Below are positions 8,898 through 20,184 of a stretch of DNA of 64,000 bases, one piece after another. Source of the DNA: Novosphingobium sp. Lineage in GTDB: Bacteria; Pseudomonadota; Alphaproteobacteria; Sphingomonadales; Sphingomonadaceae. Location: NCBI GenBank assembly GCA_004211435.1, contig SECS01000005.1:1-64000 (forward strand). Direction: 5' to 3'. The translations under genes were made by a program, and so were the position numbers. How positions within the stretch are numbered: the stretch's first letter is position 1; every line of letters starts with the position of its first letter. Under the pieces are notes generated by a model. It was not told where the DNA came from and did not search any database. It was given only the letters and a program-made list of their open reading frames with translations.

Positions 8898-9509
8898 ATG
8901 AGCGATACGCTTAACCTGCCGGCAGAGACGCGCGAACGGGCTGGCAAGGGAGCCTCCCGTGAACTGCGTCGTTCTGGCCGTGTCCCCGCCGTTGTCTATG
9001 GCAACAATGAAGAGCCCCTCTCGATCCACGTCGAGGAGAAGGAACTGCGCCGTCAGCTCGGCACCGGTCACTTCTTCAACTCGATCGTCGAGATCGAAGT
9101 CGGCGGCAAGAAGGTGCGGACGCTGCCCAAGGACGTCGCTTTCCACCCCGTCAGCGATCGCCCGCTGCACGCGGACTTCCTGCGCGTTTCGAAGAACGCC
9201 AAGGTCCACGTCAACGTGCCCGTCGTCTTCATCAACGAAGAGAAGTCGCCCGGCCTCAAGAAGGGCGGCGTGCTCAACATCGTGCACCACAGCCTCGACC
9301 TGGTGGTCGAAGCCGACAAGATCCCTGATGACATCCAGGTCGACGTCACCGGCCTGGACGTGGGCGATTCGATCCACATTGGCAGCATCAAGCTGCCCGC
9401 GGGTGCCGTCGACGGCAGCCACGAGGCCGATCTCACGATCGCGACGATCGTTGCCCCCTCTGCGCTGAAGAGCGAAGAAGGCGACAACGAGACCGCCGCG
9501 AGCGAGTAA
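8898..9509 (+). CDS. rplY: 50S ribosomal protein L25 (CTC/TL5 long form)
   Basis: A 203-aa protein of the long L25/CTC class that binds 5S rRNA. The L25 domain contains [21 protein letters not shown] and [15 protein letters not shown]; the C-terminal TL5-type beta domain contains [18 protein letters not shown], and the tail is acidic. The start at 8898 ([13 protein letters not shown]) fits the family; the longer frame from 8799 has no conserved residues. The 120-bp gap before it must hold the promoter. Downstream, a strong hairpin separates it from pth, its usual partner. Confidence 0.96.
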
Positions 9510-9519
9510 TATGGCCGCG

Positions 9520-9547
9520 CGCCGTCCCGGCATGTGTCGGGACGGCG
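9520..9547 (+). terminator. Perfect hairpin between rplY and pth
   Basis: CGCCGTCCCG (9520-9529) and CGGGACGGCG (9538-9547) form a perfect 10-bp stem with an 8-base loop. Only a short TTT follows, then the pth ribosome binding site. It may act as a partial terminator that lowers pth expression relative to rplY. Confidence 0.55.
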
Positions 9548-9563
9548 GCGTTTAGGAGGTCCG

Positions 9564-10133
9564 ATGCAGCTCTGGGTCGGCCTCGGCAATCCCGGTCCGC
9601 AATATGCGATGAACCGGCACAACATCGGCTTCATGGCGCTCGACACGATCGCCGAAGTCCACGATTTCGGTCCGGTCCAGAAGAAGTTCCTGGGCTGGCT
9701 GCAGGAAGGCCGCATCGGCGGCAGCAAGATCCTCCTGCTCAAACCCGCCACCTTCATGAATGAGAGCGGCCGTGCGGTCGGCGAGGCGCTGCGCTTCTAC
9801 AAGCTCGGCACCGATGCGCTGACCGTGTTCCACGATGAGCTCGACCTCGCGCCGTTCAAGGTCAAGATCAAGCAGGGCGGCGGCACGGCCGGGCACAACG
9901 GCCTGCGCTCGATCGACCAGCATCTGGGCGCCGACTTCCGCCGCGTGCGCATCGGCATAGGCCACCCCGGTCACAAGGACCGCGTCACCGGTCACGTCCT
10001 CGGCAACTATGCCAAGAGCGAGATGGACGATCTCGCCGACATGCTCGGCGCGATCTCGGCCGAGAGCGAATGGCTCGCCAAGGGCGAAGACACGCGCTTC
10101 ATGAACGACATCGCGCTGCGGCTGCAGGACTGA
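9564..10133 (+). CDS. pth: Peptidyl-tRNA hydrolase
   Basis: A 189-aa cytoplasmic enzyme that releases peptides from peptidyl-tRNA dropped off the ribosome. Family signatures: LWVGLGNPGPQYAMNRHNIGF with the catalytic His, LKPATFMNESG, the FHDELDL Asp region and GGGTAGHNGLRS. The start at 9564 has an exact AGGAGG a few bases upstream; the earlier in-frame ATG at 9534 lies inside the upstream hairpin. It forms the conserved rplY-pth pair. In many alphaproteobacteria ychF follows directly; here two accessory genes intervene. Confidence 0.97.
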   Translation: MQLWVGLGNPGPQYAMNRHNIGFMALDTIAEVHDFGPVQKKFLGWLQEGRIGGSKILLLKPATFMNESGRAVGEALRFYKLGTDALTVFHDELDLAPFKVKIKQGGGTAGHNGLRSIDQHLGADFRRVRIGIGHPGHKDRVTGHVLGNYAKSEMDDLADMLGAISAESEWLAKGEDTRFMNDIALRLQD

Positions 10134-10217
10134 ACCCCACACTTCGTTACAGTCGACTGCCTCGACTATCCTCGGCATCGGTATATCTTCCGCGCGTCAT
10201 AGCAGGAGGTTCAGGCC

Positions 10218-11219
10218 ATGCCCGAGATCACCCGTCGCTCCCTTCTCGCGGCAAGCGGCGCCCTCGCCGCCACGGCCGCGGTTCCCGGCGCTGCCCAAGC
10301 GGCCAAGCCGCTCGCAGGCAGGAGCTTCCTCGTCACCGGCACCTCGTCGGGCTTCGGCAATGTCGGTGCTTTGCATTACGCTCGGCTCGGCGCACGGGTC
10401 TTCGCGACGATGCGCAACCTGCCGCGGCCCGAGGGCGAAGCGCTGCTCAAGATCGCGCGCGACGAAAAGCTCGATCTCCATGTCCTGCCGCTCGACGTCC
10501 TGTCGGAGGATTCGGTGAACGCCGCAATCGCCGAGGCAGAGAAGCGCAACGGCGGTCCGCTCGACGTGTTGGTCAACAATGCCGGCATCAACATCGCCGG
10601 GCCGGTCGAGGTGCAGGACCTCGAGGCGACCAGGCTCACCTTCGACACCAACGTCTTCGGCCTCCAGCGCACGATGCGCGCGGTTCTGCCGGGCATGCGG
10701 CGCCGCAAGGCCGGGCTGATCTTCAACGTTTCCTCGCAGCAGGGCCGGATCATCATGCCTGCGGGCGGGCTCTATTCGTCGACCAAGTTCGCGGTCGAGG
10801 CGATGAGCGAGCAGATCGCCTACGAGCTCGCGCCGCACGGGATCGAGGTCGTGATCATCGAGCCCGGTGGTTTCCCCACGGGCATCGGCCGCAACCGTGC
10901 GCGCTACACGGCGGCGCTCGCAGCGCGGGCAGACGAGAAGCACAAGGCCGGCTATCCCGAACTGGTCGCGCAGATGAGCCGGATGCCCGGTGGTGGCGCG
11001 GCGCCGGCGGTGCTGCCGCCCGGCCTGCCCGATCCGATAGAGGTGCCCAAGGCCATCGCCGAGATCGCCGCGCTGCCCGCCGGAACACGGCCGCTGCGAC
11101 GCCCGGTCCATCCCGGCAACAAGCCGCAGCTCGAGATCAACCGCGTCTCGGCCGAGACCCAGCGCGGGTTGCTGGAGAAGAGCCCCTATGCCGCATGGGG
11201 CAAGGCGGTACTCGACTGA
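10218..11219 (+). CDS. Short-chain dehydrogenase/reductase with a Tat signal peptide
   Basis: A 333-aa SDR. The N-terminus is a twin-arginine signal (TRRSLLAASGALA, Arg at residues 6-7) ending near AAQA. The Rossmann domain then begins with LVTGTSSGFG, followed by LVNNAGI, the Ser in FNVSSQQG and the YxxxK motif YSSTK, so catalytic residues are intact. AGGAGG lies just upstream of the ATG. Export of a folded NAD(P)-dependent SDR by Tat is uncommon, since free cofactor is scarce in the periplasm. It may carry tightly bound cofactor, or the signal may act as an anchor. Substrate unknown. It lies between pth and ychF as an apparent insertion in a conserved block. Confidence 0.85.
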   Translation: MPEITRRSLLAASGALAATAAVPGAAQAAKPLAGRSFLVTGTSSGFGNVGALHYARLGARVFATMRNLPRPEGEALLKIARDEKLDLHVLPLDVLSEDSVNAAIAEAEKRNGGPLDVLVNNAGINIAGPVEVQDLEATRLTFDTNVFGLQRTMRAVLPGMRRRKAGLIFNVSSQQGRIIMPAGGLYSSTKFAVEAMSEQIAYELAPHGIEVVIIEPGGFPTGIGRNRARYTAALAARADEKHKAGYPELVAQMSRMPGGGAAPAVLPPGLPDPIEVPKAIAEIAALPAGTRPLRRPVHPGNKPQLEINRVSAETQRGLLEKSPYAAWGKAVLD

Positions 11220-11354
11220 TCGCGGCGCGCGAAATGTCGGAATCGTTGACAGTTTGGTTGGCGCGGCCAGAGCGTTAACCATTACAATACCCGCGAAACC
11301 GCCATTGGTACGGGATTTGCCAGGTAAGAGGTAAATCAACCAGTGGAGGCCAGG

Positions 11355-11600
11355 ATGAAGAAGATCGTAATGCTGAGCGCACTCGTCGCCAGTTTCGCCA
11401 TTGCCAGCCCGGCGATGGCAGGAGGCTGGAGTGGCTGGAAGCCGGGTTCCTCGACCTCGGGCGGTCACTCGTCTTCGGGTGGCACCACATCTTCGTCGGG
11501 CGGCAGCCATTCGGTCCCCGAGCCGGGCATGCTCGGCCTGATGGGCGCGGGCGTGGTCGGTCTCGTCGTCGCGCGTCGTCGCCGCAAGCGCCAGGACTGA
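11355..11600 (+). CDS. Small PEP-CTERM sorting-domain protein
   Basis: An 81-aa protein. A signal peptide (MKKIVMLSALVASFAIASPAMA) is followed by about 30 residues rich in Gly and Ser, then a C-terminal sorting signal: VPEPG, a hydrophobic helix (MLGLMGAGVVGLVVA) and an RRRRKR tail. PEP-CTERM proteins are processed by an exosortase at the membrane and linked to exopolysaccharide biology; no exosortase gene is in this window. I start at the ATG at 11355, five bases after GGAGG; a GTG at 11343 overlaps that ribosome binding site. A strong terminator follows at 11632-11664. Confidence 0.85.
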   Translation: MKKIVMLSALVASFAIASPAMAGGWSGWKPGSSTSGGHSSSGGTTSSSGGSHSVPEPGMLGLMGAGVVGLVVARRRRKRQD

Positions 11601-11631
11601 TCAAGCGCGCGGGCCGTCACCCGCTGCGTTG

Positions 11632-11664
11632 AAGGCCGTCGCCGGAATGTCTGGCGACGGCCTT
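11632..11664 (+). terminator. Intrinsic terminator-like hairpin after the PEP-CTERM gene
   Basis: AAGGCCGTCGCC (11632-11643) and GGCGACGGCCTT (11653-11664) form a perfect 12-bp stem with a 9-base loop, followed by TC and mixed sequence. It isolates the PEP-CTERM gene from ychF. Confidence 0.75.
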
Positions 11665-11759
11665 TCTGCGTGTGGCAGGTCCGATCGTGCTCCGGAGAAC
11701 TGGCCAAACCGCGCCGCCCCGGCTATGGGCCCGCGCTTCAAGGCAATTCGGAGCATACC

Positions 11760-12860
11760 ATGGGTTTTCGTTGCGGGATCGTCGGCCTGCCCAATGTCGG
11801 CAAGTCCACGCTGTTCAACGCGCTGACCGAGACGCAGGCAGCACAGGCGGCGAACTATCCCTTCTGCACGATCGAGCCCAACGTCGGCCAGGTCGGCGTT
11901 CCCGATCCGCGGCTCGACAAGCTGGCGGAGATCGCCGGCTCGGCCAAGATCATCCCGACCCAGCTCGGCTTCGTCGACATTGCCGGCCTCGTGCGTGGCG
12001 CCTCGAAGGGTGAAGGCCTGGGCAACCAGTTCCTCGGCAACATCCGCGAGGTGGATGCGGTCATCCATGTGCTGCGCTGCTTCGAGAACGACGACATCCA
12101 GCACGTCGACAACAAGGTCGACCCGATTTCCGACGCAGAGACGGTCGAGACCGAACTGATGCTGTCGGACCTCGAAAGCCTCGAGAAGCGCGTTCCCGCA
12201 GCGCAGAAGAAGGCGACGCAGGGCGACAAGGAAGCCAAGGTCATGGCCTCCGTGCTCGGCCAGGCGCTCGAACTGCTACGCGAGGGCAAGCCCGCGCGCT
12301 TGACCCAGCCCAAGGACGAGGACGAGGCGCGCGTCTTCGCCCAGGCGCAGCTGCTCACGGCCAAGCCCGTGCTCTACGTCTGCAATGTCGAAGAAGAGAG
12401 CGCGGCCGAAGGCAACGCCTTCTCGGCCAAGGTGTTCGAGAAGGCCAAGGCCGAAGGCGCCAATGCCGTGATCGTCTCGGCGGCGATCGAGGCCGAGCTC
12501 GTCGGCATGGATCCCGAGGAGCGTATGGTCTTCCTCGAGGAAATGGGTCTGGCCGAAACCGGCCTCGCCCGCATCATCCGCTCGGGCTACGACCTGCTCC
12601 ACTTGATCACTTTCTTCACCGTCGGCCCCAAGGAAGCGCGCGCCTGGACCGTCCATCGCGGCGCCAAGGCGCCCGAGGCCGCGGGCGAGATCCACTCGGA
12701 CATGCAGCGCGGCTTCATCCGCGCCGAGACCATCGCCTATGACGACTATGTCGCGCTGAACGGCGAGGCTGGCGCCAAGGATGCCGGCAAGTTGCGTCAG
12801 GAAGGCAAGGAATACGTCGTCCAGGACGGCGACTGCCTGCACTTCAAGTTCAACGTCTGA
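11760..12860 (+). CDS. ychF: Redox-regulated Obg-family ATPase/GTPase YchF
   Basis: A 366-aa protein of typical length for YchF/OLA1, a ribosome-associated P-loop ATPase. It has G1 GLPNVGKST, the G3-like DIAGLVRGASKGEGLGNQFL stretch, the central coiled insertion, and the C-terminal TGS domain with FFTVGPKEARAWTV and the final DGDCLHFKFNV. The start at 11760 (MGFRCGIVGLPN) matches the family; the frame is open upstream but not conserved. A 16-bp imperfect inverted repeat lies downstream, between ychF and the convergent merR-like gene. Confidence 0.97.
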   Translation: MGFRCGIVGLPNVGKSTLFNALTETQAAQAANYPFCTIEPNVGQVGVPDPRLDKLAEIAGSAKIIPTQLGFVDIAGLVRGASKGEGLGNQFLGNIREVDAVIHVLRCFENDDIQHVDNKVDPISDAETVETELMLSDLESLEKRVPAAQKKATQGDKEAKVMASVLGQALELLREGKPARLTQPKDEDEARVFAQAQLLTAKPVLYVCNVEEESAAEGNAFSAKVFEKAKAEGANAVIVSAAIEAELVGMDPEERMVFLEEMGLAETGLARIIRSGYDLLHLITFFTVGPKEARAWTVHRGAKAPEAAGEIHSDMQRGFIRAETIAYDDYVALNGEAGAKDAGKLRQEGKEYVVQDGDCLHFKFNV

Positions 12861-12881
12861 GTTGAGCGGCTGATCTGGGGA

Positions 12882-12947
12882 GCTTGCCGAAGACCTGCCT
12901 CTTGAGCGGGGGCGGGGTACGGGGTGCAAGTCAGGACTTCGGCAAGC
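12882..12947. repeat. Inverted repeat between ychF and the merR-like gene
   Basis: Sixteen bases at 12882-12897 (GCTTGCCGAAGACCTG) are the reverse complement of 12932-12947 except for one mismatch, with a 34-base loop. It lies in the convergent gap (12861-13007) and could form a long hairpin acting as a bidirectional terminator, although no T-run follows. Confidence 0.5.
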
Positions 12948-13007
12948 AATCGGATAACCCGTCGATCACTCGCGGGTTCCGGACAGCTCCATTTCGGTTG
13001 CGATGTT

Positions 13008-13406
13008 TCAGCGCTCGAAGGCCTCGATGATCGGGCATGGCCCTTCATCGGATTTCGCGCATTCGCGCGCCAGGCTTTCGAGCGAGCGCCGCGCGGCTTC
13101 GAGTTCGGCTATGCGGGCATCGAGTTCGACGATCCGCAGCCTCGCCATTTCGCGCGCCCGCGCCCGGTCGTTGCTGCGATCGAGTTCCAGCAGTTCGCGG
13201 ATTTCCTCGAGCGCGAAGCCGGCGCGCTGGGCGCCGCGGATGAAGCGAAGCCGGCGCATCTCGTCGTCGCCGTAGTGCTTGCGGCCCGAGGACGTGGGAA
13301 CCGAGCCCGGCCGCGGATCGAACAGCAGGCCCTTGCGCTGATAGAAGCGGACGGTCTCCACTCCCACCCCGGCGCTGCGCGCCAATTCCGAGATCGTGAG
13401 CGCCAC
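13008..13406 (-). CDS. MerR-family regulator, mercury-type operator, missing one metal Cys
   Basis: A 132-aa MerR-family activator. The N-terminal winged helix-turn-helix (ELARSAGVGVETVRFYQRKGLL, residues 7-28) is followed by RRLRFIRGAQRAGFALEEIRELLEL and a dimerisation coiled coil. Two C-terminal cysteines (116 and 124, in ARECAKSDEGPCPII) correspond to the Cys117/Cys126 loop of Tn501 MerR, one residue closer together; the Cys82 equivalent is absent (LLELDRSND). I start at the GTG at 13406: the dyad operator lies immediately upstream, and any longer start would translate through it. It diverges from the glutaredoxin-MauE gene and very likely controls it. A Hg, Zn/Pb or thiol-stress signal is possible; the missing Cys argues against a canonical Hg sensor. 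Confidence 0.85.
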   Translation of the reverse strand: MALTISELARSAGVGVETVRFYQRKGLLFDPRPGSVPTSSGRKHYGDDEMRRLRFIRGAQRAGFALEEIRELLELDRSNDRARAREMARLRIVELDARIAELEAARRSLESLARECAKSDEGPCPIIEAFER

Positions 13407-13410
13407 TCGC

Positions 13411-13441
13411 TTGACTCCGTACCGTGGTACGGAAGCTATAG
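13411..13441 (+). promoter_or_regulatory. MerR-type promoter/operator with 19-bp spacer
   Basis: TTGACT (-35, 13411-13416), then a 19-bp spacer holding the dyad CCGTACC-GT-GGTACGG (13417-13432), then CTATAG (-10 candidate, 13436-13441). A 19-bp spacer with a central dyad is the defining feature of MerR-activated promoters. The -35 box, the CCGTAC/GTACGG half-sites and the trailing AAG match the classical mer operator as I remember it. The promoter reads toward the glutaredoxin-MauE gene. Confidence 0.85.
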
Positions 13442-13452
13442 GCCGATTCGTC

Positions 13453-14205
13453 ATGGAACGCCAAGCCGCCCCGCCCACCGCCACGCTCCATCGCATGGTC
13501 ATGGACAAGCACGTCTGCCCCTGGGGGATCAGGGCCTTGCATCTGCTGCGCCGTAGCGGTTTCGCCGTCGAGGACCGCTGGCTGACCACGCGCGAGGCGA
13601 CCGAGGTCTTCAAGGCCGAGCATGGCGTCAAGACGACGCCGCAGGTCTTCATCGACGGACAGCGGATCGGCGGTCACGACGATCTGCGCCGCCATCTCGG
13701 GCTCGCGGTCCGCGATCCGCATGCGACCAGCTACGTGCCGGTGATCGCAGTCTTCGCCACGGCCGCCGGTCTCGCTCTCGCCGCCTCCACGGCAGCATTC
13801 GGCACGCCGCTGACCGTCCGAGCCGGCGAATGGTTCGGCGCCTTCGCGATGATGATCCTCGCCATGCTCAAGCTGCAGGACGTCGACAGCTTCGCGACGA
13901 TGTTCCTCGGCTACGATCTGCTGGCGAAGCGCTGGCTGCCCTATGCCTGGCTTTATCCCTGCCTCGAATGGACTGCAGGGGCGCTGATGGCGGCGCATTG
14001 GCTCGATGTCGTTTCGATCCCGATCGCCCTGTTCATCGGCACGGTGGGTGCGGTGTCGGTTTTTCGCGCGGTCTATGTCCAGAAGCGCGACATCAAATGC
14101 GCGTGCGTCGGCGGATCGAGCCGCGTACCGCTGGGTTTCGTCTCGCTCAGCGAGAACCTGGGCATGGTGGCCATGGCCGCCTGGATGCTCGGCAAGTACC
14201 TTTGA
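13453..14205 (+). CDS. Glutaredoxin-MauE/DoxX-like membrane fusion protein
   Basis: A protein of about 250 aa. An N-terminal glutaredoxin domain has a monothiol-type CPWG site (HVCPWGIRALHLLRRSG) and a TTPQVFIDGQRIGGHDDL glutathione-binding stretch. About four transmembrane helices follow (ATAAGLALAA, FGAFAMMILAML, the CLEWTAGALMAA region, IALFIGTVGAVSVF) with a cytoplasmic/periplasmic CACVGG motif typical of MauE/DoxX redox-associated membrane proteins. The ATG at 13453 lies only about 11 bases after the -10 box, giving a nearly leaderless mRNA; ATGs at 13495 and 13501 are alternatives nearer the Grx domain. The longer frame from 13396 starts inside merR, upstream of the promoter, and is rejected. 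Likely a membrane thiol-disulfide relay for a metal or oxidative stress response. Confidence 0.8.
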   Translation: MERQAAPPTATLHRMVMDKHVCPWGIRALHLLRRSGFAVEDRWLTTREATEVFKAEHGVKTTPQVFIDGQRIGGHDDLRRHLGLAVRDPHATSYVPVIAVFATAAGLALAASTAAFGTPLTVRAGEWFGAFAMMILAMLKLQDVDSFATMFLGYDLLAKRWLPYAWLYPCLEWTAGALMAAHWLDVVSIPIALFIGTVGAVSVFRAVYVQKRDIKCACVGGSSRVPLGFVSLSENLGMVAMAAWMLGKYL

Positions 14206-14221
14206 CATGATGGAGAATGTG

Positions 14222-15505
14222 ATGAAAACCGCTCTGCGGCTCACCGCCTGCGCGCTGGCGATGGGCTTCGCTGCATCCGCCGAGGCCCAGGACCACGATC
14301 ACGGCGCGATGGATCATGCCGCCATGGGGCACGAGATGCCAGCCGAAGCAGGGGAAGAGATCGCCGAGGCGGTCCCTGCCGGCGCCAGCACGGGTTCGGG
14401 CACGGCGCTGCTGCCCGCCAACGAGTCGATGCGCGGCCTGCACCTGCCCACGGGCGACTGGATGGTCATGGCGCACGGCTTCGTCTCGGGCCAATATACC
14501 GACCACTCGGGCCCACGCGGCGACGACAAGGCCTACGTCACTTCGATGCTGATGGTCACTGGCGAGCGTGAGACGAGTTTCGGCCGCGTCCTGCTCAAGT
14601 CGATGCTCAGCCTCGAGCCGGCGATGGACGCGCGCGGCTATCCCAACCTGTTCGCCACGGGCGAGACTGCGCGCGGCGCTCCGCTGATCGATCGCCAGCA
14701 TCCGCATGACCTGTTCATGGAACTGGCCGCGCGCGTCGATTTCGATCTGGGCGGCGACGACAAGCTGTTCCTTTACGGCGGCCCCGTCGGCGAGCCGGCG
14801 CTCGGCCCCAGCGCTTTCATGATGCGCGGTTCCGCACGCTACAATCCCGAACCGCCGATCACGCATCACTGGTTCGATTCGACGCACATCACCTATGGCG
14901 TCGTCACCGCGGGCTATTCCTCGCCGCTGTTCCAGCTCGAAGCCTCGGCCTTCCGGGGCGCCGAACCCGACGAGCACCGCTGGGGGATCGAGACTCCCAA
15001 GCTCGACTCCTGGTCCGTCCGCGCGACCCTGAGCCCCTCGCCTGCCTGGACCTTGCAGGCGAGCTACGGGCAGATTGAGCAGCCCGAGGAACTGCACCCG
15101 GGCGAGGACGAGCATCGCGTAACGGCCTCGGCGCATTACAATGATGGCAAGGGTTTCGCGGCGATGCTGGCCTTCAGCAACAAGGATCGCGTGCCCGGTG
15201 GTTCGCTGAGCGCCTGGCAGGCCGAAGCCAACTGGGACATCGACGATCGCAACACGCTGTTCGGCCGCTTCGAGAACGTCGCCAACGACGAGTTCTTCCC
15301 CGATCACGCCGATCCGCTGCACGATCAGGTCTTCCGCGTCAGCAAGTTTCAGCTCGGCTATGCGCGGCGCCTGCCGCTTGGGCCGTTCGAACTCGCGCTC
15401 GGCGGCTCGGCCGCGCTCTATGCGAAACCCGCGGCGCTCGACGCCACCTATGGCGATACCCCCTGGGGCTATACGGTGTTCGCGCGCTTCATCCTGGGGC
15501 GTTGA
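14222..15505 (+). CDS. Outer-membrane beta-barrel-like protein with His/Met-rich N-terminus
   Basis: A 427-aa exported protein. The signal peptide (MKTALRLTACALAMGFAASAEA) is followed by a short His/Met-rich segment (DHDHGAMDHAAMGHEM) of the kind that binds soft metals in copper proteins. The body has alternating amphipathic strands and ends in a strand near the C-terminus (YTVFARFILGR), suggesting a beta barrel. HPHDLFMELAARVDF and NPEPPITHHWFDSTHI are further His-bearing stretches. GGAG lies six bases before the ATG at 14222. It follows the glutaredoxin-MauE gene by 16 bases and is probably in the same MerR-controlled operon. It is not a clear CopB; an unnamed metal-locus family is the best description. 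Confidence 0.7.
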   Translation: MKTALRLTACALAMGFAASAEAQDHDHGAMDHAAMGHEMPAEAGEEIAEAVPAGASTGSGTALLPANESMRGLHLPTGDWMVMAHGFVSGQYTDHSGPRGDDKAYVTSMLMVTGERETSFGRVLLKSMLSLEPAMDARGYPNLFATGETARGAPLIDRQHPHDLFMELAARVDFDLGGDDKLFLYGGPVGEPALGPSAFMMRGSARYNPEPPITHHWFDSTHITYGVVTAGYSSPLFQLEASAFRGAEPDEHRWGIETPKLDSWSVRATLSPSPAWTLQASYGQIEQPEELHPGEDEHRVTASAHYNDGKGFAAMLAFSNKDRVPGGSLSAWQAEANWDIDDRNTLFGRFENVANDEFFPDHADPLHDQVFRVSKFQLGYARRLPLGPFELALGGSAALYAKPAALDATYGDTPWGYTVFARFILGR

Positions 15506-15576
15506 GGCGCAACACTAAGATATATTCCAACCATACGGGAGCAAAAGGGGGGCGATAATCCCGCGGATAGAGCGCG

Positions 15577-16629
15577 TTGCGAGCCTTGAAGCGGGATGAG
15601 ACCATAGCCGACCTTGCCCCTCTGGCAGCGCGCCCTGATGGCGCAGGCTCGTCGCGGCGGGCTCTGCCGCCGCAGGACGCGATCGCCGCGCTCGCGCGCG
15701 AGATCGAGTCCTGCCTGGCAGCCTGCGCGCCTCTCTCGCTCGGCGAGCATCCCATCGAAGCCTATCTGGCCTCATTCGCGGAGCTTCCTGCCGGCTCGCA
15801 GTATCATGCGATTCCGCCCGCAGCCCGGGCGACCTGCAGGGCGATCGAGGCCGCGGGCGGCGCCGAGGCGGTGGAGGCCTATCACCGCCTCGTCCTGCTT
15901 CACCTGATCATGGGCGTGATCGCCCGTGGTCCGTCGGCGCCGATGCATCTGACGCCCGAAGCCCTGGCCCTGCTAGACGCCTATCTAGCGCGCGTGGTGG
16001 CCGACGTGGCGAAGCCCCGCAAAGGCTTCTTCCGCCACGGCAACGATCAATTCGCCAAGGACTTTGCGGTCTGCCGCGGCCGCCTGCTGCCCTGTGGGGT
16101 CGAGGTGCTCGATCCGCTGGGCGGCATTCCGCGCCGTCTCGTGTTCAAGGGCCGCCAGGGTGCGGACCACTTGCGGCAGGCGGTGACCATGGCGCGTATG
16201 GCCTGGCGGCTCGGTGGGACGAAGGCGGTGTGGGGGCTCCACTTCGACCGCCGGCAGATCCAGAACTTCACCGCCAAAGGCTATGCCGATCTCTATCTGC
16301 GCGTAGCGGATCTGCTCGAGGCCAATCCAGAGATCCGCGGCATCAGCAGTGGGTCATGGTGGCACGATCCGCGGGTCCTCGAGATTAGCCCCGAGCTGTC
16401 GTTCATCGGCACCATCCCCGAAAACGGCGGCGCCTTCCTGATCCGGGTCGGTGAGGATGACCGTACGACCAGCGATGCGCTGCGCTTCGCGCCCCAGCGC
16501 ACTGCACTGCACAGGCTGGGCAAGTATCGCCCCTGCTTCTACATGCTGGCCTGGGCGCGGCAGGACGTGATCGCCTGGGCCGAAGCCTATCGCGCGGGTT
16601 CGGTGCAGCGCAGGATTCCGGTCGCCTGA
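15577..16629 (+). CDS. Unrecognised 350-aa protein
   Basis: I do not recognise this protein. The frame is open for 350 codons with coding-like composition. Conserved-looking stretches include GFFRHGNDQFAKDFAVCRGR (residues 148-167), GVEVLDPLGGIPRRLVF, an ISSGSWWHDPRVLEISPELSFIG block, IPENGGAFLIRVGEDD, and GKYRPCFYMLAWARQDVIAWA near the end. No signal peptide or transmembrane helix is apparent; it is probably cytoplasmic. There is no in-frame ATG before residue 112, so the start must be TTG at 15577 or 15586, and neither has a good ribosome binding site; the true start is uncertain. Its 3' end overlaps the convergent lipoprotein gene by 43 bases. Confidence 0.6.
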   Translation: MRALKRDETIADLAPLAARPDGAGSSRRALPPQDAIAALAREIESCLAACAPLSLGEHPIEAYLASFAELPAGSQYHAIPPAARATCRAIEAAGGAEAVEAYHRLVLLHLIMGVIARGPSAPMHLTPEALALLDAYLARVVADVAKPRKGFFRHGNDQFAKDFAVCRGRLLPCGVEVLDPLGGIPRRLVFKGRQGADHLRQAVTMARMAWRLGGTKAVWGLHFDRRQIQNFTAKGYADLYLRVADLLEANPEIRGISSGSWWHDPRVLEISPELSFIGTIPENGGAFLIRVGEDDRTTSDALRFAPQRTALHRLGKYRPCFYMLAWARQDVIAWAEAYRAGSVQRRIPVA

Positions 16630-17072
16630 TAGACGATTCGCTCGAAGCTGTCCCGGATGGTCAGGCGATCGGGGCCACGCGCGATCTGCGCCGATTGCTG
16701 CCGGCCGACGTATTTCGCGCGAATTCCTGCGGCGATGAGCGGGCTGCCACTGTCCGAGGCGAGAATCGCCGGCTCGCCGTTGAGCTGGAATACGGCCTTG
16801 TCACTGCCGATGACGGCAAGTGGGAAAGCCCCGGGGTTGGGATCGGTGAAAAAGCCGCAGCCGTTGTCCGAAAGGTTGAAAACACGCCGCACGGTCGGAT
16901 CGATCACACCCAGTTCGAGCGGTTGGATCGGCGGCTTGCGCTTTTGCGCCGCTTCGACCTCGGCAACCGCACGCGCATCGGCTGCGGCCTTCTCGGCGGG
17001 GGTCTGGCCACCGCAGGCGCTCAGCAGCGCGCACGGCATGATGATCGATAAAGCGAGCCGGGTTTTGTTCAC
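16587..17072 (-). CDS. Hypothetical lipoprotein
   Basis: A 161-aa protein with a lipoprotein signal (NKTRLALSIIMPCALLSACGG; lipobox LSAC). An Ala/Glu-rich helical segment follows, then a compact domain with NLSDNGCGFFTDPNPGAFPLAV and a second late Cys (LRCTEPAR) that could pair with it. It starts with GTG at 17072; the longer upstream frame would mask the signal sequence. It overlaps the convergent 15577 gene and lies just downstream of mutL on the same strand, 41 bases away. Function unknown. Confidence 0.7.
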   Translation of the reverse strand: MNKTRLALSIIMPCALLSACGGQTPAEKAAADARAVAEVEAAQKRKPPIQPLELGVIDPTVRRVFNLSDNGCGFFTDPNPGAFPLAVIGSDKAVFQLNGEPAILASDSGSPLIAAGIRAKYVGRQQSAQIARGPDRLTIRDSFERIVYQATGILRCTEPAR

Positions 17073-17113
17073 GAGTGGACAATGCGCGACGCCGAGGCGT
17101 GGTTCCCGCGCGG

Positions 17114-18955
17114 TTACTTGCGGCCGAACAGCTTCTCGATGTCGCCGTGGGCCAGCTTGACCCAAGTCGGACGGCCGTGGTTGCACTGGCCCGAGCGCGG
17201 CGTGCGCTCCATTTCCCGCAGCAGCGCGTTCATTTCCGCCACCGCCAGCACGCGTCCGGCCCGGACCGAGCCATGACAGGCCATGGTCGCAAGCACGTGT
17301 TCGAGCCGCTCACCAAGCAACAGGGCATCGCCGTTCTGCGCGAGGTCGTCGGCGATGTCGCGCACCAGCGCCTGGACGTCGCTCTTGCCCAGCGCGGTCG
17401 GCACCGCGCGCACGAGCATGGTCGCCGGGCCGAAGCGCTCGATCGCGAGGCCCAGCCCTGCAAGTTCTTCCGCCTTTTCCTCGAGCCGGTCGCAGGCGGG
17501 TTCCTCGAGATCGACGACTTCGGGCAGCAGCAGTGCTTGGCTCGCAGCGACCGCGCCCTGGGCGCCGGCCGCGCGCAGGCGCTCGAGCACGAGCCGTTCG
17601 TGCGCAGCGTGCTGGTCGACGATGACCAGTCCGTCCTCGGCCTCGGCGACGATGTAAGTGCCTGCCACCTGCCCGCGTGCGACGCCGAGCGGGAATTGAA
17701 CCGCTTCCTCTCCGATCTCCTCGGCCACCTCGGCGCGCGCCGCCGGTGGTGCCATCAGCGCCTGCTCGTAGCCGCGCCAGCTCTGTCCCGACTCGCTGAG
17801 GCGCGGCGCCGGGCGGTCGAAACTGGTGAACAGGCTGCCCAGCGGTGTCGGCGCCGGCGGCGTATAGGGCGCGGACGCCGTGACGGGCTCTACCTGCCAG
17901 TTGGCCATGGCGCCGGCGGCCGGGCTCTGCGCCGAACGCTGGCCCGAACTGTCGAGCGCGTGGCGCAGCGCACCGACGATGAAGCCGCGAACGAAGGCCG
18001 GATCGCGGAAGCGCACCTCGGTCTTGGCCGGATGAACGTTGACGTCGACCTCTTCGGGCGAAAGCTCGAGGAACAGCGCGAGCACGGCGTGACGGTCGCG
18101 CGCGAGCATGTCTGCATAGGCGCCGCGCACCGCGCCGATCAGCAGCCGGTCCTTCACGGGGCGGCCGTTGACGAACAGGTACTGGTGATCGGCGACGCCG
18201 CGATTGTAGGTGGGTAGGCCCGCCACCCCCGTGAGCCGTGCGGACCCGCGTTCTGCATCGATGACCACGCCATCGTCGGCAAGCTCGCGCGCGACGAGGC
18301 GGGAGACGCGCGCGGCCAGTGCCTCTTCGGGCTGAACCTGGAGCACGCGGCGGCCGTCGTGCTCGAGCGTGAAGCCGAGTTCGGGCCGCGCCATAGCGAG
18401 TCGCCGCACCACGTCGAGGCAGGCCGCATATTCGGCGCGCGGGGTGCGCAGGAACTTGCGTCGCACAGGAACCTTGCCGAACAGGTCCTCGACCCGGATG
18501 CGGGTGCCCGGTGGCAAGGCGGCGGGGCCGTCGTCGGCGACCTGGCCGTGATCGACCACGCGCTTCCAGCCCTCCTGCCCGCGCGGCCGCGACTCGATCG
18601 AGAGACGCGCGACGCTGGCGATCGAGGGCAAGGCCTCACCGCGAAAGCCGAGCGTGCCGACCAGTTCGATGTGCTCATCGGGTAGCTTCGAGGTGGCATG
18701 GCGTTCGAGCGCGAGCGCGATCTCGGCCGGGCCCATGCCACAGCCGTCGTCGGTCACCTCGATCAGGTCGAGCCCGCCGGCGGCGAGCCGCACGGTGATG
18801 TTGCTCGACCCCGCATCTATCGCGTTTTCGACCAGTTCCTTGAGTGCCGAGGCCGGACGCTCGACCACTTCGCCCGCGGCGATGCGGTTGACGAGTTCCT
18901 CGGGCAGGCGCCGGATGACCGGGGGGATTCTTGGTGAGCTTTCGGGCACTTCCAC
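17114..18955 (-). CDS. mutL: DNA mismatch repair protein MutL
   Basis: A 613-aa MutL that couples MutS mismatch recognition to strand incision. The GHKL ATPase N-terminus is intact: LVENAIDAG, DDGCGM, LGFRGEALPSI. The C-terminal domain carries the endonuclease motif DQHAAHERLVLE, ACHGSVRAG and a CNHGRP variant of CPHGRP, so it is the self-nicking type expected in organisms without MutH. A proline-rich linker joins the two. The GTG start at 18955 is two codons upstream of another GTG (18949); both lead to IPPVIRRLPEELVNRIAAGEVV. It diverges from mreB across a 182-bp gap holding both promoters. Confidence 0.96.
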   Translation of the reverse strand: MEVPESSPRIPPVIRRLPEELVNRIAAGEVVERPASALKELVENAIDAGSSNITVRLAAGGLDLIEVTDDGCGMGPAEIALALERHATSKLPDEHIELVGTLGFRGEALPSIASVARLSIESRPRGQEGWKRVVDHGQVADDGPAALPPGTRIRVEDLFGKVPVRRKFLRTPRAEYAACLDVVRRLAMARPELGFTLEHDGRRVLQVQPEEALAARVSRLVARELADDGVVIDAERGSARLTGVAGLPTYNRGVADHQYLFVNGRPVKDRLLIGAVRGAYADMLARDRHAVLALFLELSPEEVDVNVHPAKTEVRFRDPAFVRGFIVGALRHALDSSGQRSAQSPAAGAMANWQVEPVTASAPYTPPAPTPLGSLFTSFDRPAPRLSESGQSWRGYEQALMAPPAARAEVAEEIGEEAVQFPLGVARGQVAGTYIVAEAEDGLVIVDQHAAHERLVLERLRAAGAQGAVAASQALLLPEVVDLEEPACDRLEEKAEELAGLGLAIERFGPATMLVRAVPTALGKSDVQALVRDIADDLAQNGDALLLGERLEHVLATMACHGSVRAGRVLAVAEMNALLREMERTPRSGQCNHGRPTWVKLAHGDIEKLFGRK

Positions 18956-19053
18956 TGCATAGCGACGAAGTGCCGGAAATTCGAGACTGGGGCGCGAAAG
19001 CTATCCCCGGATTGCGCCACAAAATTTTGGCCTTTCGCCAAATGCTGCGCTAG

Positions 19054-20184
<1,131 letters not shown>

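Follow-up and report, generated by a model that had tools for sequence, protein, structure and literature searches.

A three-gene module was analysed in a 64,000-nucleotide stretch of the draft genome of Novosphingobium sp. (GenBank assembly GCA_004211435.1, contig SECS01000005.1, positions 1 to 64,000; this whole stretch is called the window). Between positions 13008 and 15505, a gene for a MerR-type regulator (P0001) is divergent from a gene for a glutaredoxin-MauE fusion (GrxMauE, P0002), which is followed by a gene for a porin-fold outer-membrane protein (P0003), and a mercury-type (mer-type) operator lies in the promoter between the divergent genes. On the comparisons described below, the regulator is probably a Cu(I)-responsive member of the MerR family (Ag(I) and Au(I) being probable further inducers) that descended from a mercury-sensing MerR and controls copper-handling genes. 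A preliminary description, made from the DNA letters of the window, had suggested a distinct system for sensing metal or thiol stress that kept the mer DNA code. This suggestion is supported by the shared operator, by the position of the regulator inside the MerR clade, and by the copper genes or Cys-rich peptides found at operator sites that have no divergent regulator. The stimulus, left there as metal or thiol stress, is predicted here to be copper or copper-like monovalent soft metals, and the system, which is widespread in Alphaproteobacteria, is predicted to serve in copper handling.

Operator sites in the genome and in related genomes

The dyad TCCGTAC-CGTG-GTACGGA (positions 13416 to 13433, no strand) was found in a promoter with a -35 box TTGACT (13411 to 13416, plus strand) and a -10 box CTATAG (13436 to 13441, plus strand), separated by a spacer of 19 bases (13417 to 13435, CCGTACCGTGGTACGGAAG). 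The upstream regions of related loci carried TTGACT in 34 of 37 cases, and a sequence similar to the -10 box occupied the same position in related loci. The pattern CCGTAC-N2to4-GTACGG occurred once in the window and in none of 100 shuffles. Two annotated mer operons, merRTPCA of a Caballeronia plasmid and merRTP of a Pseudomonas plasmid, share the dyad, with 0 and 1 mismatch respectively to TTGACTCCGTACN4GTACGG, so the label of mercury-type operator given in the preliminary description is correct for the window; its reading of the spacer, the TTGACT box and the CCGTAC/GTACGG half-sites was likewise borne out.

The exact dyad was found twice in the 4.49-Mb draft genome, both times with a TTGACT box; 0.00009 copies of the full 18-base pattern are expected in this genome from base composition. 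The second copy (C372:24033–24054) lies directly 5' of a gene for the multicopper oxidase CopA (TIGR01480, 801 bits; cut-off 479), and the sole CopB match of the genome (PF05275) lies 3' of that copA. No MerR gene was read beside this operator in the fetched stretch (the MerR match of the contig is 13 kb off and of another type), so that control of copA-copB would have to act in trans.

Genomes of the family (149) were scanned for the operator with 1 mismatch allowed, and the window site and 39 others were classified. These 40 sites occurred in 32 genomes, and a reversed control gave 0 among the matches listed. A regulator of this family was divergent at 35 of the 40 sites (49–69 percent identity to P0001 for the 34 besides that of the window), where the next recognised gene was GrxMauE (31 sites), the porin-fold gene (2) or a tiny Cys-rich peptide (2). 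The five sites without a divergent regulator precede copA-copB (this genome), copC-copD (G138; NF033814/NF033808, above cut-off), a copper-translocating P-type ATPase (G079; TIGR01511, above cut-off), a DUF305 protein (G124) and a Cys-rich peptide (G012). At the last two, a regulator of this family was present less than 1 kb from the operator, though not divergent.

GrxMauE loci from named genomes were also surveyed (the best 80 of 126), with neighbours counted by tblastn. A regulator lay within 400 bases at 27 loci, and the operator (at most 3 mismatches) was present in all 27; the regulator of one of these (L045) matches the family only over its first 28 or so residues and may be broken. At the 53 loci without an adjacent regulator, the operator was missing in 50. 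The exceptions were L044, where a homologue of the regulator lies about 3.6 kb off, L059 and L080; the last two carry the operator with 2 mismatches each and no family regulator in the fetched stretch. Among 25 porin-fold loci, the operator was found in 9 of 9 with the regulator and in 0 of 16 without it (a 5-mismatch match at one of these 16, L137, was left uncounted). When other genomes were searched for this gene order, as proposed at the outset, regulator and operator were found at 27 of 80 GrxMauE loci, and the porin-fold gene as well at 9 of the 27.

In a sample of 337 genomes, the exact operator was found in six further Alphaproteobacteria genomes. Two of these carry regulators of this family (57 and 52 percent identity), one beside copA, copB and DUF411-like open reading frames (ORFs) and one with a porin-fold gene. 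The other four have MerR genes at 40–42 percent identity, one of them beside ORFs read as MerA-like and MerT-like. Mer-type operators were also seen in pairs 1.5–2 kb apart at two loci of other Alphaproteobacteria (L270 and L272), one pair beside ORFs read as MerA-like and MerT-like.

The regulator

P0001 (13008 to 13406, minus strand; 132 aa, GTG start) has exactly two cysteines, Cys116 and Cys124, spaced C-x7-C. Its closest PDB match by sequence was MerR 5crl (79 bits), which has a C-x8-C loop, one residue longer, and a further cysteine missing in P0001. We take 5crl to be the MerR of Tn501 and 4ua1 that of Bacillus. Comparison with 5crl agreed with the earlier account of a regulator that keeps Cys116 and Cys124, has no Cys82 equivalent and has a loop shortened by one residue. 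P0001 scored 103.8 bits under the Hg(II) MerR model TIGR02051 (cut-off 150.85) and 86.6 bits under the CueR model TIGR02044 (cut-off 147.4).

From loci with a GrxMauE match no more than 1.5 kb away, 59 distinct complete regulator sequences were collected. A C-x7-CP metal loop, of CueR length, was present in 59 of 59; among 12 further regulators outside this set, 8 had a seven-residue loop and 4 had no C-x5to11-CP loop. The position of MerR Cys82 and CueR Ser77 was Arg in 57, P0001 among them, His in 2 and Ser in 0 of the 59, where the Arg falls in the Cys82/Ser77 column in one alignment and two columns away in the tree alignment, with no Cys and no conserved Ser either way. Passages of a review and of an experimental paper state that this position decides between selectivity for +1 (Ser) and +2 (Cys) metals (PMC9909328, PMC11591864). 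With Arg or His instead, the regulator family fits neither the monovalent nor the divalent class.

The DNA-reading helix VGVETxRxYQR is conserved in the family, which fits the conserved mer operator. In the relevant passages of a published study of residue-base correlations in the MerR family (PMC5045206), such helix residues are grouped with MerR, on our own mapping of positions between the two. A maximum-likelihood tree was built with 19 family members (18 drawn randomly from the 59, plus P0001). All 19 formed one clade (100/99) inside proteobacterial MerR, joining Tn501-type and Caballeronia MerR at 98/85, with Pseudomonas MerR next outside (98/84); CueR formed a separate clade, and Bacillus MerR was placed elsewhere on a long branch. 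The tree was rooted at its midpoint, so the direction of change, from Hg(II) to another metal, is presumed.

No CueR above cut-off was found in this genome. A profile search likewise gave no MerA above the curated cut-off (14 relatives were sub-threshold), and no mer gene was read among the ORFs at 9000–20000, where no model search for merT or merP was made; to that extent the module is, as first described, without mer genes.

Copper gene context

Eight annotated plasmid regions were opened (three porin-fold matches and five of 60 matches listed), and copper or heavy-metal genes stood beside GrxMauE or the porin-fold gene in 5 of the 8. A Blastomonas plasmid carries MerR and glutaredoxin, then PepSY, CopD, CopC, CopB and a multicopper oxidase; a Sphingomonas paucimobilis plasmid carries a copper-binding protein and resistance-nodulation-division (RND) efflux; a Sphingobium baderi plasmid carries the porin-fold gene, DUF305 and a heavy-metal P-type ATPase; and in Agrobacterium a copper oxidase and copper-binding proteins are near the glutaredoxin. 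A plasmid of Pontibacter akesuensis, from another phylum, has a porin-fold homologue (L115, 34.5 percent identity) one gene behind a copper P-type ATPase and next to the gene for a four-helix copper-binding protein, which suggests horizontal spread. The Sphingobium YBL2 plasmid region has DUF305 only, and no copper genes were found in the opened Sphingobium YG1 region. At three porin-fold loci the regulator carries Ser77 and falls in the CueR clade of the tree, though it scores just under the CueR cut-off; a CsoR-type gene is present at three. CopA, CsoR-type or DUF305 references were matched near GrxMauE at 12 of the 53 loci without a regulator.

Several observations weigh against a copper-responsive regulator. 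The same copper references were near GrxMauE at just one regulator-bearing locus of 27, 17 of these 27 had neither copper references nor a porin-fold gene, and 41 of the 80 GrxMauE loci (many at an erythrobacter ychF-mutL site) had neither the regulator nor any of the CopA, CsoR-type, DUF305 and porin-fold genes. At the 35 divergent-regulator sites of the family scan, CopA was in the examined stretch at 2 and DUF305 at 6 (3 partial). Copper genes being few at regulator-bearing loci, the link to copper draws mainly on the non-divergent sites, the regulator-free loci and the annotated plasmids. The operator does not by itself indicate copper, since it is used by the more distant MerR genes described above, and the porin-fold gene is not always under its control (16 of 25 loci have neither operator nor regulator). 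The Ser that marks published monovalent-metal sensors is absent from the regulator family, and a second candidate copper regulator, a CsoR/FrmR-type gene, is present in this genome on C289. To these are added three points from Sinorhizobium meliloti: no copper genes were found in the opened region, passages of the paper on its glutaredoxin SmGrx3 report no free-living or symbiotic phenotype for an Smgrx3 mutant (PMC6315971), and the same passages list Smgrx3 with the inducing condition 'HS', taken as heat shock.

Metallothionein-like peptides

Behind three operator sites without a recognisable gene, ORFs of 25, 30 and 40 residues were found with the core C-x-CNPCTC-x-x-C-x-C and a plausible ribosome site upstream. 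The three peptides gave no significant match in Pfam or NCBIfam, and no CNPCTC-type peptide was found in the window. An operator-independent scan with the back-translated CNPCTC motif was made in 149 family and 396 order genomes (overlapping samples). The family gave 4 matches in 3 of 149 genomes, every one at the operator. The order gave 13 matches in 12 of 396 genomes; no Cys-rich peptide was present in G169, G218 and G778, and in G211 and G703 the CNPCTC peptides are Cys-rich but lack the operator. When the scans were pooled, a short peptide (23–40 aa) was present in eight genomes (loci L276–L279 and L283–L287), in all of them with the operator 65–105 bases upstream (0–3 mismatches). The regulator was directly divergent in six of the eight and 0.9 kb away in one, and none was found in the fetched stretch of the other (G681). 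The gene order was operator-peptide-porin in G704 and operator-peptide-GrxMauE in G633.

A general scan for small Cys-rich ORFs lying up to 1.2 kb away gave 9 of 142 distinct operators and 43 of 710 control windows, a comparison that is uninformative since the controls came from the same short loci. For Cys-rich small ORFs starting within 150 bp, the figures were 8 of 142 operators and 26 of 5,780 controls, biased by the choice of several loci via the CNPCTC motif. Short Cys-rich ORFs (42 and 45 aa) that contain CNPCTC but have no such operator are those at L282 and L289; at L282 a distant MerR gene (31 percent identity) is divergent and another dyad, CTGTAGTTACTACAG, stands in front.

Proposed mechanism

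In the copper-sensing scheme, the apo-regulator would sit on the mer-type dyad between the two promoter boxes and hold the over-long promoter off. A monovalent metal bound between Cys116 and Cys124 would then untwist the 19-bp spacer and let RNA polymerase transcribe grx-mauE and the porin-fold gene. Activation via spacer distortion is described for MerR relatives in passages of a review (PMC9909328) and is carried over here by analogy. The same regulator may also act in trans on the genome's copA-copB operon. GrxMauE, to judge from its conserved residues and gene context, may act at the inner membrane, via C22 and C216-x-C218, on Cu(I)-glutathione or on damaged thiols, and the His/Met-rich porin, on like grounds, may bind or pass copper at the outer membrane, while CopA would oxidise Cu(I). 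In related genomes the same operator would drive the metallothionein-like peptides.

A fuller evolutionary account, to which we give about an even chance, is that an Hg(II) sensor was turned into a Cu(I) sensor with its DNA code unchanged. The third cysteine would have been lost, the loop set at CueR length, and an Arg placed where the rule allows Ser for monovalent or Cys for divalent metals. A dispersed copper regulon would have been built up, including an undescribed family of 23–40-residue metallothioneins (C-x-CNPCTC-x-x-C-x-C), and the regulator may compete with true mer regulators for one operator where both share a cell. If so, metal and DNA specificity would have been uncoupled in MerR family evolution, with a new metal read through an old operator, and the published Ser/Cys sequence rule for predicting which metal MerR proteins sense would be broken. 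A function would also be offered for genes annotated in plasmid records only as MerR family regulator, glutaredoxin and hypothetical protein, SmGrx3 would gain a testable role, and a family of tiny metallothionein-like peptides would be added.

Comparison with known systems and alternative explanations

The system was compared with proteobacterial MerR of the Tn501/Tn21 type, which has the helix VNVETIRFYQR (resembling the family's VGVETxRxYQR), falls in the same clade, has the divergent layout and has the operator TCCGTAC-4-GTACGGA in a 19-bp spacer (mer operator consensus as given in passages of PMC1526738). In MerR, however, the metal ligands are Cys82, Cys117 and Cys126 with a C-x8-C loop, whereas the family has Arg or His at 82 and C-x7-C; P0001 also falls below the TIGR02051 cut-off, and copper genes stand behind the operator in a genome without MerA above cut-off. 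CueR and HmrR share with the family the two-cysteine C-x7-CP loop, and multicopper oxidase and Cu-ATPase genes are among the predicted targets of the P0001-type system. They differ in forming a separate clade and in having Ser77, which the family lacks; P0001 is below the TIGR02044 cut-off, and the CueR operator is of the ACCTTCC type (passages of PMC1526738), in contrast to the CCGTAC type in the window. Canonical CueR identity was rejected on the operator, the Ser77 position and the tree. A degenerate mer operon was also rejected, because MerA is missing at the cut-off used and regulator and operator recur with GrxMauE across loci.

SmGrx3 of S. meliloti (gene SMa0280) has the same two-domain architecture of glutaredoxin and MauE as GrxMauE, with a CPYG site in place of the CPWG site in the window. 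At the pSymA copy (L217), a regulator of this family is divergent from the gene and the operator has 2 mismatches; this locus offers a ready laboratory model. Passages of the SmGrx3 paper give its biological function as unknown and do not link it to copper (PMC6315971). Among the papers listed in searches of open-licence literature, none described the regulator, a copper role for GrxMauE or CNPCTC-type peptides.

Continued sensing of Hg(II), or of soft metals generally (Hg, Ag, Au, Cu), by two-coordinate binding at a bis-cysteine site, with copper genes recruited as Hg and Cu stress co-occur, is an unlikely account, though the strongest of the alternatives. The regulator does lie inside Hg(II) MerR with the branch support given above and has kept the mer operator, and the C-x7-C pair could in principle bind Hg(II) linearly. 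Against this account, Arg or His stands in place of Cys82, the third Hg ligand, in 59 of 59 regulators, the genome has no MerA above cut-off, and copper genes or Cys-rich peptides stand behind the non-divergent operator sites. The peptides do not decide between copper and mercury, as peptides of the metallothionein type could bind Hg as well.

Sensing of thiol-redox state or heat stress, with a Cys116/Cys124 disulfide controlling a membrane glutaredoxin, is less probable still. It would suit the prevalence of GrxMauE as first gene (31 of 35 divergent-regulator sites) and the 'HS' entry for Smgrx3, but the operator also stands in front of copAB, copCD, a Cu-ATPase gene and genes for metallothionein-like peptides, none of them a redox-stress gene, and the regulators retain the CueR-like metal-loop signature C-x7-CP. 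We consider it very improbable that the window operator is vestigial and that the three genes lack common regulation. Operator and regulator are indeed missing at 16 of 25 porin-fold loci; the operator (at most 3 mismatches) is nevertheless kept in 27 of 27 regulator-bearing GrxMauE loci, and the window copy has no mismatch and retains both promoter boxes. Copper sensing by a MerR descendant is retained as the likely explanation.

GrxMauE and the porin-fold protein

The regulator start codon is separated from TTGACT by a 4-base gap. The gene for GrxMauE (P0002, 13453 to 14205, plus strand; 250 aa) follows the promoter, and a 16-base gap separates it from the porin-fold gene (P0003, 14222 to 15505, plus strand; 427 aa). 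P0002 is of the SmGrx3 type and matched Glutaredoxin PF00462 (E 1e-7) and MauE PF07291 (E 4e-12), both above cut-offs. Its glutaredoxin site is C22-P-W-G25, of which C22, P23 and G25 are invariant in 39 GrxMauE sequences, and C216-x-C218 is also invariant.

P0003 has a His/Met-rich N-terminal region. Its structure was modelled on ten sequences as a porin-like barrel with a mean predicted local distance difference test score (pLDDT) of 71, the first 58 residues being below 50. The barrel aligned with general porins (OmpF/OmpC type), giving Z 22–24 over about 300 residues against those of the OmpF type at about 10 percent identity, and P0003 scored 18.4 bits under Pfam Porin_4 (cut-off 27), so that the likeness to porins is one of fold only. 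The His/Met-rich N-terminus and the motifs QHPHD and HHWxDSxH, conserved in ten P0003 homologues, set it apart from those porins. Identity as CopB/PcoB was not indicated, the sole Pfam match being Porin_4 below cut-off and the best folds being of the OmpF type; other barrels are possible. The Pfam matches, the composition and the predicted barrel upheld the earlier reading of a membrane glutaredoxin fusion followed by a His/Met-rich barrel-like protein.

Many regulator-free GrxMauE loci (part of L046–L110; Qipengyuania, Erythrobacter and relatives) lie between DUF1206-like and MaoC genes and look like a resident housekeeping copy (MaoC is a Pfam match; YchF, MutL and DUF1206, like the MerA-like and MerT-like assignments above, are readings of ORFs). 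That erythrobacter site, read as a ychF-mutL chromosomal site, is the same chromosomal site as that of the window.

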